NCBI GenBank assembly: GCA_003551945.1
Contig: PUNZ01000173.1
Location: forward strand, 1-64,000
Direction: 5' to 3'
DNA from: Halovenus sp.
Lineage (GTDB): Archaea > Halobacteriota > Halobacteria > Halobacteriales > Haloarculaceae
DNA: 64,000 nt
The position numbers were made by a program, and so were the translations under genes. A model generated the notes under the pieces. That model saw nothing but the letters and a program-made list of their open reading frames with translations, did not search any database and was not told the origin of the DNA. Position 1 is the first letter of the stretch, and every line of letters starts with the position of its first letter. Positions 45,043 through 50,315 of this stretch are shown in pieces.

Positions 45043-45897
45043 ATGGAAGGAACCGCACGCGCACCGGCGGCGGGGACGGTGCTCAACGCACTTGCAACCG
45101 GGACAGGGTCGGCATTTGCTATTTCAGAATACACCACAGCGAGCGTCGATCTTGATAACCAAAAGGGCGTAACCGGCGAAATCGTCGGCGCACCCGAGGC
45201 CGATACGCGGCTTGTCGAGCGCTGTGTCGAACTCGTAACCGCGGAGTACGGCACAGGGGAAGGCGGAACGGTGACGACAGAAAGCGAGGTTCCGATGGCC
45301 TCGGGCTTGAAATCATCAAGCGCCGCAGCGAACGCCACCGTCCTGGCGACGCTCTCTGCACTCGGAAAAGCAGATGTTGTCTCGCGAGAAGCGGCCGCCA
45401 GAATCGGTGTCGCTGCTGCCCGAGATGTCGGCGTCACAATCACTGGAGCGTTCGATGACGCCAGTGCGAGTATGCTCGGCGGCGTCACCGTCACGGACAA
45501 CGAGACCGATACCCTGCTTCACCGAGAAGAACGGGACTGGAGTGTTCTCGTCTGGACGCCACCGGAGCAATCCTTCAGCGCAGATGCTGATGTCGAGGCC
45601 TGTACACAAATAGCTCCGATGGCGGAGTTCGTCGCTGAGTTGGCACTCGAAGGGAAATTTGAGCGAGCGATGACAGTAAACGGGTTGGCATTCTGTGCAG
45701 CGCTTGGCTTCGATAGCCAACCAATGGTCGAAGTGATGGCAACGGTCGATGGCGTCTCGTTGTCCGGGACAGGGCCGAGTTTCACGGCTGTTGGCGACGA
45801 ATCAACGCTCGAAGCAATTCGGTCACGTTGGGACGACCGTCCTGGGATGACGAGACTGACAACGACTCAAACGGCCGGGGCAACCATTCTCGGCTGA
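45043..45897 (+). CDS. aroK: Archaeal (GHMP-type) shikimate kinase
   Basis: GTARAPAAGTVLNALATGTGSAFAISEYT, VPMASGLKSSSAAANATVLA GHMP motif. Confidence 0.92.
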   Translation: MEGTARAPAAGTVLNALATGTGSAFAISEYTTASVDLDNQKGVTGEIVGAPEADTRLVERCVELVTAEYGTGEGGTVTTESEVPMASGLKSSSAAANATVLATLSALGKADVVSREAAARIGVAAARDVGVTITGAFDDASASMLGGVTVTDNETDTLLHREERDWSVLVWTPPEQSFSADADVEACTQIAPMAEFVAELALEGKFERAMTVNGLAFCAALGFDSQPMVEVMATVDGVSLSGTGPSFTAVGDESTLEAIRSRWDDRPGMTRLTTTQTAGATILG

Positions 45898-45984: not shown

Positions 45985-46284
45985 ATGAGTAGCGAATCAA
46001 CAATCAACCCCGAGGAGATGTCGCTCGATGAGTTGCGGACCGAGATTCGGGATATCGACCGGGATATCGTCGAGTTGATTGCCCGGAGAACGTACGTTGC
46101 CGATACGATTGCGCAGGTCAAAGCAAGCAAAGACCTCCCGACAACCGATGAAAAACAAGAGGAGGTAGTGATGGACCGTGCCGGCGAAAATGCGGAACGA
46201 TTTGATGTTGATGCAAATCTTGTCAAAGCAATCTTCCGATTACTTATCGAACTGAACAAGGTTGAACAACGCGAGAATCGGTGA
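45985..46284 (+). CDS. aroQ: Chorismate mutase (AroQ class)
   Basis: MSLDELRTEIRDIDRDIVELIARRTYVADTIAQVKASKDLP...AIFRLLIELNKVEQRENR*. Confidence 0.93.
   Translation: MSSESTINPEEMSLDELRTEIRDIDRDIVELIARRTYVADTIAQVKASKDLPTTDEKQEEVVMDRAGENAERFDVDANLVKAIFRLLIELNKVEQRENR
46252..46284 (+). repeat. Upstream copy of 33-bp direct repeat (chorismate mutase 3' end)
   Basis: ctgaacaaggttgaacaacgcgagaatcggtga; 30/33 identical to 47966-47998. Confidence 0.9.
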
Positions 46285-47086
46285 AACCGGCATTCCGTGG
46301 CGATTCAAACATAAGGTGAGCGAACCGCTCTTGGAAGGCACTTCAGAAGAGCTGTTCTCCGTCGTTTCTCCTCCAGTGGGCGGGCCCGATGTTTTCGTAC
46401 CGCTCGGCGAGTCGCAACTCCGAGAACATCTCGAAGCCACGAACGACCCAGAACCAAGACGGCTGGCATTCAAAGCCGTCGATTCGACGGAACAGATGAT
46501 CGGGTACGTAGAACTGAACACGATTGACCGACGAAATCTCTCAGCGAGCGTCTCACGGGTCATCGTGAGCCCAGACGAACGCGACCGCTTGGAACGGGAG
46601 CAACGGAACCTCTCGCGCAAAGAACACAGGTCGAACAACTGGGAGAAACAACGCCAGACCGTAGCCGAGCGCTACCAGAAAATAAAGCGCAAGCGGCGTG
46701 ATTTCCTGCACAAACTCTCGGCATACTATGCTCGGGAGTATGACCTTGTGGCTGTTGAAGACCTCAACGTGAAGGGGATGCTGGAATCACCGCGTAACAG
46801 CCGCAACAGGGCGTCTGCGGCGTGGGGAACGTTCCTCCGAATGCTGGAATACAAGAGCGAACGGGAAGGGACGCACTTCGTTGCGGTTGACCCAAGAGGA
46901 ACGACCAAAGAGTGTGCAGGGTGTGGTGTGGAGACGGACAAACCACTGTGGGTACGTGAGCATTCGTGTCCATCATGTGGGTTTGAAGCGGATAGAGATT
47001 TGAATGCAGCGTGGAATGTTCTTTCTCGCGGTCTTTCAGAACTAGGAGTGGTTCACTCCGAAGGAACGTCCTCAGAATCGCCATGA
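46285..47086 (+). pseudogene. Chimeric pseudogene: GNAT acetyltransferase N-terminus fused to TnpB C-terminus
   Basis: Frame reads WRF...EELFSVVSPPVGGPDVFVPLGESQLREHLEATNDPEPRRLAFKAV...GYVELNTIDRRNLSASVSRVIVSPDER (GNAT), then DRLEREQRNLSRKEHRSNNWEKQRQTVAERYQ...LVAVEDLNVKGM...CAGCG...CPSCGFEADRDLNAAWN (TnpB). Confidence 0.85.
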
Positions 47087-47124
47087 GATTCTGATGGGCT
47101 GCGAAAATCGCACAGCGATTTTCG
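47072..47124 (+). repeat. Two tandem hairpins inserted in the tnpB 3' tail
   Basis: tcagaatc-gccatga-gattctga and cgaaaatcg-cacag-cgattttcg; the first loop carries the in-frame TGA. Confidence 0.7.
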
Positions 47125-47190
47125 AACGCCTGTGGAGACTGCGCTCCCTACGGGAACTGCGGTTGTTCCTGCAAAGCACGTCGTGGAAAC

Positions 47191-47255
47191 AGGAAGCCCC
47201 ACCCTCAACGAGCAAACGGGAGACGCCGTGAGCGAGTAGGGTGGGGTAGTTCACT
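47191..47255 (+). mobile_element. IS200/IS605 (IS1341-type) right end / probable omega-RNA scaffold
   Basis: Hairpin ccccaccct (47197-47205)...agggtgggg (47238-47246) followed by tagttcac; overlaps tnpB tail VVETGSPTLNEQTGDAVSE*. Confidence 0.7.
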
Positions 47256-47284
47256 ACGCTCTCATATTGATTACAGCAGATACG

Positions 47285-47638
47285 TCAGTCCAGTCCGAGA
47301 CTCAGTTTCAATGCCTCGTCCACCGTCTCCATCGTCTCTGTGTCGAGGCTTCCAAGCACCGAGTGAATCCGCTTTTCGATGGAGACGACACGTATCTGGT
47401 CGAGGCGAATTGAGGAATCGTTCTCAAACGGTGACTCCGCCGCTTCGACGAGGACCTCGAACGGATAGCCTCGATACGTTCCCGTGGCAGGCGCAACGAT
47501 AGTCGTACTAGCATTGTTATTCCCAACATCGTTCTGGACGACTACTGCAGGACGAGTTTTCTTCATTTCGTGCCCTTCGGCAGGATCAAGTCGAACGATA
47601 ACAACGTCGCCGCGACGAATTTCCACGTCCTCGCTCAT
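47285..47638 (-). CDS. PemK/MazF family toxin
   Basis: IRRGDVVIVRLDPAEGHEMKKTRPAVVVQNDVGN...TIVAPATGTYRGYPFEV. Confidence 0.9.
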   Translation of the reverse strand: MSEDVEIRRGDVVIVRLDPAEGHEMKKTRPAVVVQNDVGNNNASTTIVAPATGTYRGYPFEVLVEAAESPFENDSSIRLDQIRVVSIEKRIHSVLGSLDTETMETVDEALKLSLGLD

Positions 47639-47874
47639 TTATCCAGCCCGCTCCACGCCTCGTCCGATGCTTCGTCCCACTCTTCTGCAAGCTCTTCCGC
47701 ACTCTGAGATGCCTCGCGGTACGCAGCAGCCAGTTCATCTTCATTGGGTTGGTCAGATTCTACCTCGACGACGGCGACGGTCACACGTTTGTTGGCGTAC
47801 TCCGTTCCAAGATAGATTCGGCCTCGATCGTCGGTCTCGTTCGTTCGGAGGTCCCGAGCATCTACTTTCGTCAT
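47635..47874 (-). CDS. AbrB-like antitoxin
   Basis: ETDDRGRIYLGTEYANKRVTVAVVEVE; ATGA overlap with the toxin start. Confidence 0.8.
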   Translation of the reverse strand: MTKVDARDLRTNETDDRGRIYLGTEYANKRVTVAVVEVESDQPNEDELAAAYREASQSAEELAEEWDEASDEAWSGLDK

Positions 47875-47965
47875 GTTACCAACTTGGACCTACTGCTGAA
47901 TAAACATTGCCCACTATTACCCACGAAAGATATTTTCTGTAACTCGTGCCATGGATTTCATCTAC

Positions 47966-47998
47966 CTGAACAAGGTTGAGCAACGGGAAAATCGGTGA
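47966..47998 (+). repeat. Downstream copy of 33-bp direct repeat (orphan chorismate mutase 3' end)
   Basis: ctgaacaaggttgagcaacgggaaaatcggtga encodes LNKVEQRENR*; three mismatches, all synonymous third positions. Confidence 0.9.
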
Positions 47999-48045
47999 TT
48001 CATAAGACAGTGTGAATCGGTCTACAAAGAGACGATAGCACGAGT

Positions 48046-48828
48046 TCAGGAAAGATATGCGCTTGCTATCGTTTGCAACTGCTCGCTCTCTTCAAGCGTA
48101 TGTGTCGTTGAGAGGGGCGAGACGCTAATATGATTATTTAGAATGGTTCGTCGGTCCGTTCCCTCTTCATCGGGGATGTCACCATCCGCCATTTTCTCCC
48201 AGAGTTCGTCCTCAATGTCGATTGTCTTGCCGTTGCGCTTGGCGGTTAGTTCAGAGACAGGGGACGGATAGGTGAGTTTTATCTGGTCGGTGCTCCGTTC
48301 GACCGTTGGGGCATTGACGTTCAGATAATCAATCCGGTCAAATAGCTCGTTTTCCACAGCCTGCTCGGTAAGATACGCTGTCGCCTTGACGGCCGATTCG
48401 TATGCTTCCGACGTGCGGTTGAAACTCCGTGGGTCAAACTCATCACCCGGGATGTACATCGATGAGGCAACCGCAGGAACTCCAAAAAACGCCGCTTCGA
48501 CGGCAGCGCTCACAGTTCCGGACCTGCCAAGGGTCACAGCACCGAGATTTGCACCACGGTTACAGCCCGAGACAACGACATCTGTCTCCGGACACAGTTC
48601 CGAGAGTCCTGCAATCACACAGTCAGATGGTGTCCCGTGGACAAGGTAGCCCAGTTCGTGCTCACCGTATTCGACAGAGTACGAAAGTGTCCGACCCACC
48701 GCGCTTTGGTCGTCTGCAGGAGCCACGACAGTCACATTGCCAATATCGGAAAGACCAGCAGCGAGCGCACGTATGCCCGGCGCCTCAATGCCGTCGTCAT
48801 TTGTCACGAGAATTTCGAGGTCGCTCAT
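48046..48828 (-). CDS. surE: 5'/3'-nucleotidase SurE
   Basis: MSDLEILVTNDDGIEAPGIRALAAGL, VVSGCNRGANLG. Confidence 0.95.
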   Translation of the reverse strand: MSDLEILVTNDDGIEAPGIRALAAGLSDIGNVTVVAPADDQSAVGRTLSYSVEYGEHELGYLVHGTPSDCVIAGLSELCPETDVVVSGCNRGANLGAVTLGRSGTVSAAVEAAFFGVPAVASSMYIPGDEFDPRSFNRTSEAYESAVKATAYLTEQAVENELFDRIDYLNVNAPTVERSTDQIKLTYPSPVSELTAKRNGKTIDIEDELWEKMADGDIPDEEGTDRRTILNNHISVSPLSTTHTLEESEQLQTIASAYLS

Positions 48829-48956
48829 ACCGGGACCTTGGGGGCTGGTGGTATCAAGGTGGCGTTTGGGTATCCAGCGACCCACACAAAGAGCGTGATT
48901 TTGCTACCAGCAATGGCAGGGAACTGCACCGCAGATAGCTCAGTGGGCCAAGGCAG

Positions 48957-50315
48957 TTAGCTGGATTTATGCAGTCGCGTTCTATCGTAAAAGAGATCCA
49001 CGTGGTCCTCGTGCGGTTTGAAAAATGCCCGCTTTCGGACACCATTATCTGTTGGAATTTCAAACTCATAATCAAGGTTTGTGGGGTCTGCTGGAATGAG
49101 CAGTGTCGTCGTGTTATCGAGGTCGTGTTTGGTTGTCAGTTGGAGGACGCTGCCTTGTTGCTCGACCGTTGCCTGTGTAATCCCCCGATACGATTCGTAC
49201 TCGCCAGTGAGTTCCTCGAATATTGCTTTCCGGCGGTAGTACGGAACGACGGTTTCGGGTTCTTTGCCATCAAGTATTGCAAGAATCCCTTCTGCAACCG
49301 TCGGTGGTGTGGTTGCTGGCGTGGTGTTTGCCCCGATTGCAATCGTATACTCACCATCAGGGGTAAATCCGATATACGAAGAGGAGACGCCCAATGACCC
49401 GCCGTGCCCAATCATGGTTCGGTCACCGACCTGAACTCGCTCCCAACCATAGCCGTACTCGTTTCCGGCACGCGGGACATGCCCGTCGTGTGCGGTGGCC
49501 AGTCGCTCTGACGGAATGAGTTCAGCCCCGTCGAAAGTCCCACCATTCTGATTCATCACGAGATAGTTCGTCAACTCGGTGACGGGGGCCAACAATCCCC
49601 CAGCAGCATAGCTTAGTTCGCGGTGGGGAAATGGGGTCGCTTCCGGCCCGCCATCCCGAAGGATATACGGCGTCATCATATCCTCATCTGTGTTGTCCGG
49701 GGCAAACGTCGAACGTTCCATACCAAGCGGTGAGAGGACTTCCGACTCGATAACCGATGCAAACGGCCTGCCAGTTACTTCCTCAATGAGCATACCCAGC
49801 AGGATATAGCCCGAGTTATTGTACATCACAAACTCCTCGTCCGTGAGCTCCGTGTCTGCGCCGTTGACGTGGCGGTAGAAATCTTCTCTGTCGCCGAGTG
49901 GGACGGTGAACTCTTCAATACCGGTCAACCGTGAGAGAAGGACTTCACTCGTTTTAAGAGATGGGATGCCTGAGGAGTGCGTTAAGAGTTCATGAATCGT
50001 AATCGGTTGCTCCCCGTCACCAAGTGTGAACGCTGGAAGGTAGGAACTGACGGCGTCCGTAACCGAGAGCGCACCCCGCTCTTCCAACAAGAGAATACCG
50101 AGGGCCGCAAACGATTTACTCACTGAAGCGACGCCATACAACGTGTCCGCTGTTGCTGGCTCGTTCGTTTCGAGGTCTCGTGACCCAAATCCACTTGCAT
50201 AGACAAGTTCCCCGTCGCGTGACAGCGCAACGCTCGCGCCGGGAACGGATGCTTCGGTAAGCCACTCGCCAACAAACTGTTCAATCTCCCTGCATGTGTG
50301 GTCCGATAGCGACAT
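48957..50315 (-). CDS. Serine hydrolase, beta-lactamase/PBP4-like
   Basis: LYGVASVSKSFAALG (SxxK), MYNNSGYILLG (YxN), MIGHGGSLG (HGG). Confidence 0.94.
   Translation of the reverse strand: MSLSDHTCREIEQFVGEWLTEASVPGASVALSRDGELVYASGFGSRDLETNEPATADTLYGVASVSKSFAALGILLLEERGALSVTDAVSSYLPAFTLGDGEQPITIHELLTHSSGIPSLKTSEVLLSRLTGIEEFTVPLGDREDFYRHVNGADTELTDEEFVMYNNSGYILLGMLIEEVTGRPFASVIESEVLSPLGMERSTFAPDNTDEDMMTPYILRDGGPEATPFPHRELSYAAGGLLAPVTELTNYLVMNQNGGTFDGAELIPSERLATAHDGHVPRAGNEYGYGWERVQVGDRTMIGHGGSLGVSSSYIGFTPDGEYTIAIGANTTPATTPPTVAEGILAILDGKEPETVVPYYRRKAIFEELTGEYESYRGITQATVEQQGSVLQLTTKHDLDNTTTLLIPADPTNLDYEFEIPTDNGVRKRAFFKPHEDHVDLFYDRTRLHKSS

Follow-up and report, generated by a model that had tools for sequence, protein, structure and literature searches.

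Bacterial integrons depend on cassette capture by site-specific recombination, and so does the spread of dif modules. Large bacterial integrons are known to carry toxin-antitoxin cargo, and protein-gene 3' ends are the targets of some casposons. Integrons and CALINs, including those of archaea (PMC9668308, where Halobacteria are not mentioned), consist of small directional cassettes in tandem, each with one site, which are inserted at a preferred point and exchanged between species. The dif (pdif) modules of Acinetobacter plasmids (PMC13141974) are small, often encode toxin-antitoxin pairs, have no recombinase of their own and are bounded by sites with two arms around a short spacer. The archaeal dif sites of Thermococcales are 11-bp inverted repeats around a 6-bp spacer (PMC2958812). 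In Thaumarchaeota, integrative elements are found at the 3' ends of protein genes, where the incoming copy restores the gene end and leaves the displaced original as a direct repeat (PMC6563490).

The 3' end of aroQ, the chorismate mutase gene, appears to serve archaea as a hitherto undescribed site of integron-like gene capture. A review of archaeal tyrosine recombinases (PMC8371274) mentions neither chorismate mutase nor cassettes, and no description of haloarchaeal aroQ cassette arrays was found in the openly licensed literature, a report elsewhere being possible. In the way it works, the system resembles integrons or dif modules, yet it fails defining features of both. It shares with integrons the tandem cassettes of the same orientation with one site each, the preferred insertion point and the exchange between species. 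Unlike in integrons, no IntI lies beside the insertion point and the large arrays have no tyrosine recombinase, insertion takes place at the coding end of aroQ, which would be restored with each capture, and genes occur on both strands. The cassette ends bear a core that is strongly conserved in sequence and apparently duplex-like, where integrons have diverse attC sites that are recognised as folded single strands and are little conserved.

The small size, the frequent toxin-antitoxin cargo, the missing recombinase and the two arms around a spacer are shared with the dif modules. However, dif modules are bounded by sites of alternating, opposite orientation that are used by XerC/XerD, whereas the aroQ-type sites point the same way, nearly all of them as direct repeats on one strand, and the insertion site lies inside a protein-coding gene. 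Where dif has two 11-bp arms and a 6-bp spacer, the sites described here have an inverted symmetry centred in TGAACAA, with arm and spacer lengths that the data do not fix. As with the Thaumarchaeota-type elements, relatives have an empty site, the gene end is restored and a direct repeat is displaced, but the haloarchaeal cassettes are mostly 0.2-3 kb long, carry no integrase and are stacked in arrays. The likeness to casposons lies in the protein-gene 3' end that some of them target, and the likeness to IS200/IS605 or IS1341 elements in the TnpB relic of the island described below, at the ends of which no terminal inverted repeats, and within which no Cas1, were found.

The aroQ island of the window

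The window, the whole stretch of 64,000 nucleotides of Halovenus sp. that was analysed, belongs to a draft assembly of 270 contigs that is 82% complete (genome G000, contig C50). On its forward strand it encodes a shikimate kinase of the GHMP type (45043..45897, Pfam GHMP_kinases_N), followed by aroQ (45985..46284, Pfam CM_2). The aroQ-end core site, defined by repeat comparison, an empty-site relative and a site logo, covers 46252..46284 on the same strand. A second, orphan copy of this 3' end lies at 47966..47998 (forward strand), and both copies stand exactly where a preliminary description had placed them. Its count of 30 identities in the 33-nt core was reproduced, all three mismatches being synonymous. 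The full direct repeat is 39 nt long (46246-46284 and 47960-47998, 34/39 identical), and the aroQ 39-mer found no match better than 25/39 in 1000 dinucleotide shuffles of 46285-49000.

The coding content of the island is confined to a GNAT fragment, TnpB, MazF and the partner of MazF; no integrase gene was found in the island and no tRNA gene in the window. The tnpB relic and toxin-antitoxin pair that had been reported between the copies were recognised through Pfam OrfB_IS605, Cas12f1-like_TNB and PemK/MazF toxin, the last with a small partner gene. The first segment (46285..46588, forward strand), which had been overlooked, is the truncated 5' part of a GNAT acetyltransferase cassette, with 95% identity over 46355-46588 to cassette 1 of a Halomontanus rarus plasmid, annotated as a GNAT family protein. 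It is followed by an IS1341-type TnpB relic that includes the right end of the element (46573..47254, forward strand; Pfam and NCBIfam TnpB). This element is present in several copies in the genome, where its right end (47125-47254) recurs with 95% identity. Since TnpB is absent from most cassettes, it is regarded as a passenger in the window island.

The third segment is a MazF toxin-antitoxin cassette (47264..47965), which includes its left arm and lacks its 5' part; the stretch 47264-47996 and the Salinadaptatus halalkaliphilus MazF cassette share 91% identity. On the reverse strand it carries a toxin gene of the MazF/PemK family (47285..47638, Pfam PemK_toxin 1.3e-30) and, upstream of it, a small gene (47635..47874) that encodes the presumed antitoxin, for which Pfam gave no match and which is a conserved MazF partner in about ten cassettes. 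This conserved pair of a predicted MazF-fold toxin and an upstream small gene has the features of a type II toxin-antitoxin module. Read from its sequence, the island is thus a decayed example with two cassettes, a GNAT cassette cut by the IS1341-type TnpB relic and then a MazF cassette. Judging from the ends of the alignments, the boundary between both cassettes and the internal site were probably lost together with the IS insertion.

The 19 bp or so immediately upstream of the orphan (47947..47965, forward strand), also missed before, form the element-side left arm of CATGGATTTCATCTAC type, which is conserved at -19 to -1 in 45 non-redundant sites. An imperfect inverted repeat also flanks the orphan site (47934-47952 and 48035-48053, 19 nt, 79%, with 82 nt between the arms) and is possibly due to chance. 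Further downstream is surE (48046..48885, reverse strand, Pfam SurE), the flanking chromosomal gene that adjoins aroQ in the empty site.

aroQ was present in 60 of 61 genomes, and the closest relative in this search was G012, whose AroQ is 94% identical. Its site is empty, with a single aroQ end, 39 bp and then surE. The DNA before the window aroQ end and the DNA after the orphan align to the two sides of this site at 84% and 79%, respectively. The orphan tail GGGAAAATCGGT is the tail of the G012 aroQ, and the window aroQ has a different one (GCGAGAATCGGT), which indicates that an incoming end completes the gene and that the old end (47966..47998) is displaced. The part of the window aroQ tail to the right of the spacer was probably supplied by the first cassette, as the tail comparison suggests. 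The preliminary description had offered, as the first of two origins, an insertion at the gene 3' end that restores the gene and displaces the original end downstream, and it had predicted a close relative with one aroQ end and surE directly downstream; the G012 site and the two tails bear this out. Relatives without the island were not found to keep both copies: the empty sites of Haloarcula and Halorubrum hold one. Such sites occur in Haloarcula amylolytica, H. vallismortis and H. mannanilytica, while the loci of H. sebkhae and G023, otherwise alignable, each hold a single cassette.

Occupied aroQ sites across Halobacteria

The window site is not the only occupied one: it is one case of a widespread system of arrays, which the preliminary description had not recognised, and orphan aroQ ends were found downstream of aroQ in other genera across the class. 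Of 92 aroQ loci scanned, 38 have orphan ends downstream on the aroQ strand, 47 ends in total; in comparable lengths of DNA only 2 were seen upstream and the opposite strand had 1. When a 23-nt core was searched with at most one mismatch in 400 genomes of the class, about 140 genomes contained two to five copies on the same strand; the control, the core pattern read backwards, gave only a few matches in all 400. When up to three mismatches were allowed, a longer motif, in which the core is preceded by the non-coding arm GATTTCAGCTAC, turned up in 74 of 300 genomes, belonging to 34 genera, and its control matched none. The idea that genera without pattern matches lack the system was weakened, as their aroQ ends are diverged and some have typical cassette starts downstream. 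Repeated CTCAACGAGGTCGAGCAAAGCGA matches in G004, G208 and G212 seem to belong to another repeated sequence and were excluded from the cassette count. In Halorubrum salinum, two scaffolds (L060, L061) show the same aroQ locus and orphan spacing, by real duplication or assembly redundancy.

Cassettes are delimited by successive cores, with up to four in a row. In the logo of the 45 non-redundant orphan sites, the element-side arm at -19 to -1, approximately TGTNACGGATTTCAGCTAC, is followed by the core CTGAACAAGGTCGAGCAGCGGGAGAAYCGGTAG, and conservation ends just past the stop codon. The left arm is non-coding, conserved and joined to the aroQ core, and it terminates each cassette; some left arms (TTGGATATTATC) may resemble archaeal dif, a likeness on which no conclusion is based. 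Variation in the right part of the core falls mainly on third codon positions, a pattern that formerly coding ends under selection should show. The two sides of the site are most complementary about a single centre, in TGAACAA (46253..46259 in the window, forward strand), with 64% at aroQ sites (mean over centres 23%), where part of the complementarity follows from the conserved protein sequence, and 42% at orphan sites. Inverted arms around a TGAACAA spacer would fit the core site of a tyrosine recombinase, and this spacer is the presumed region of strand exchange, a position of the crossover to which cassette comparisons point.

Some cassette boundaries are blurred, and the internal site of the window island is lost, both of which count against the cassette model. 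A module of about 100 bp right after the core is common to many cassettes with unrelated cargo, and shuffled controls gave 0 matches. It is non-coding and 5' in the cassette, with examples in the first cassettes of L140, L044 and L161 and the second cassettes of L085 and L139, and may serve as an arm region for a recombinase, as a regulatory RNA or as a terminator.

A toxin-antitoxin module was present in about 30 of the 45 cassettes analysed, as MazF with its partner, several types of VapBC, or RelE/ParE with a ribbon-helix-helix antitoxin. Among 77 cassette proteins, Pfam gave PIN 13 times, PemK 9, PIN_2 5 and ParE 3, where one protein may be matched by more than one PIN model. The minor cargo includes single transporters, hydrolases, methyltransferases and others.

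Homologous cassettes were found in different genera, replicons and array positions, and the homology between genomes often spans from core to core and no further. This is the case, among others, for the first cassette of Halobiforma haloterrestris and the second of Natrarchaeobius (90%), and for the first of Halorubrum distributum and the third of H. kocurii (92%). One VapBC cassette stands first, second or third depending on the array, and Haloterrigena alkaliphila has a row of four toxin-antitoxin cassettes. Cassettes are also present away from aroQ: one at the aroQ locus of G005 matches one in a non-aroQ array of G013 at 94.6% from the first core base onward. Megaplasmids of Natrialbaceae, and one in Halobacterium sp. 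DL1, carry aroK-aroQ together with such sites (shikimate kinase-chorismate mutase pairs L139-L144 and L160-L162). Larger intervals exist as well, up to the 26 kb from aroQ to the next core in G001 (L145/L146, G001:C48:296300-328000), which may be a large or much-accreted island. In sister genomes of G001, aroQ adjoins an alcohol dehydrogenase-like gene.

Proposed capture mechanism and candidate recombinases

Taken together, the recurrence of occupied sites, the empty sites, the modular arrays bounded by repeats, the cassettes shared between genera and replicons, the symmetric conserved arms and the mostly toxin-antitoxin cargo make it very probable that the window island is a member of a widespread haloarchaeal gene-cassette system that inserts at the last ~33 bp of aroQ. 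In the proposed mechanism, the cassette would be a non-autonomous unit which, as a circle, carries its cargo behind one composite site, in which a functional aroQ 3' end follows the left arm and TGAACAA. The spacer in aroQ would recombine site-specifically with this composite site, the aroQ end of the cassette would complete the gene, and the old end would move downstream behind the left arm of the cassette. Repeated capture would thus give head-to-tail arrays. We infer the circular intermediate, a tyrosine recombinase acting in trans, and toxin-antitoxin addiction as an aid to the persistence of cassettes. Because the last aroQ codons would be replaced at each capture, a housekeeping gene would be tied to a mobile array.

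A broader proposal can be put forward only tentatively, namely that this is a class-wide capture platform with an origin independent of integrons, in which a conserved Xer-like recombinase acts in trans on the aroQ-end site, cassettes are shuffled between species and the AroQ C-terminus is rewritten. A class-wide haloarchaeal analogue, if true, would explain the closely similar toxin-antitoxin pairs in distant haloarchaea, would allow tests of how non-autonomous archaeal cassettes are mobilised and would provide a natural insertion site for archaeal genetics.

No array examined, large ones included, encodes a relative of the sampled tyrosine recombinases, a similarity comparison that could miss serine or very divergent enzymes; the recombinase therefore probably acts in trans. 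An integrase beside the array was rejected as a general rule, with a tyrosine recombinase near only 3 of about 100 loci, roughly 1 kb past the array, and none in large arrays. In these three Haloarcula-type loci (L057, L101, L130) the gene lies beyond a carbonic anhydrase gene, and a homologue is present elsewhere in the genome of the window (L157). No integrase was seen when the larger ORFs of the 26-kb G001 island were read by eye, and the phage collection gave no meaningful match. The correlation of integrase families with arrays was dropped, because several PF00589 genes are found in most haloarchaea and nearly all have the Xer-like one.

Within the cassette model, the aroQ end may quite possibly be the attachment site of a virus or plasmid, whose integrase would also move the cassettes as satellites. 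Integrase-encoding elements of archaea do use gene 3' ends (PMC6563490), haloarchaeal genomes contain many integrases, and the three Haloarcula-type loci have their tyrosine recombinase close to the array. However, no integrase element lies beside a core among the loci, large islands, plasmids and phage records examined.

Such a helper element is at least as likely as the second candidate, a conserved chromosomal Xer-like tyrosine recombinase of haloarchaea that would act in trans on the cassettes as XerC/XerD do on the Acinetobacter dif modules, an assignment that we consider doubtful, if conceivable. The Xer-like protein (L172:1084-2115 and homologues) is related to XerA/XerC/XerD and occurs in 33 of 33 good genomes, mostly with 53-75% identity to the query and in most of them as one close copy. 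In G346, where aroQ is followed by a RelE cassette, its gene is the sole PF00589 gene detected, but this assembly is 88% complete and the enzyme that inserted the cassette need not persist. Moreover, its universality makes it uninformative as a correlate, and the gene was not found in the 82% complete assembly of the window itself. To our knowledge there is also no haloarchaeal dif with which the site could be compared, which counts against the Xer-like candidate.

Alternatives without a site-specific enzyme

Site-specific capture was also weighed against spread by homologous recombination through aroK-aroQ and its flanks after mating or DNA uptake, in which the repeats would be by-products between diverged aroQ loci. 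Haloarchaea readily exchange long tracts, aroK-aroQ offers homology upstream, and aroQ is also found on plasmids. However, homologous recombination fails to account for head-to-tail arrays in which one cassette takes different positions, for cassettes away from aroQ, for homology that sets in exactly where the core does, or for the conserved non-coding arm that every junction shows. This explanation is already disfavoured and appears improbable. Recombination with a diverged aroQ locus, the second origin offered in the preliminary description, is disfavoured by the head-to-tail arrays, the core-exact homology and the conserved arm.

A local artefact, in which misassembly or IS-mediated duplication via the TnpB repeat made the second aroQ end, could draw on the multi-copy TnpB element between the copies and the 270 contigs of the assembly, but it is refuted by the other occupied sites, most of which, on complete chromosomes and plasmids among others, have no TnpB, and by isolate genomes that join the MazF cassette to the core in the same way.
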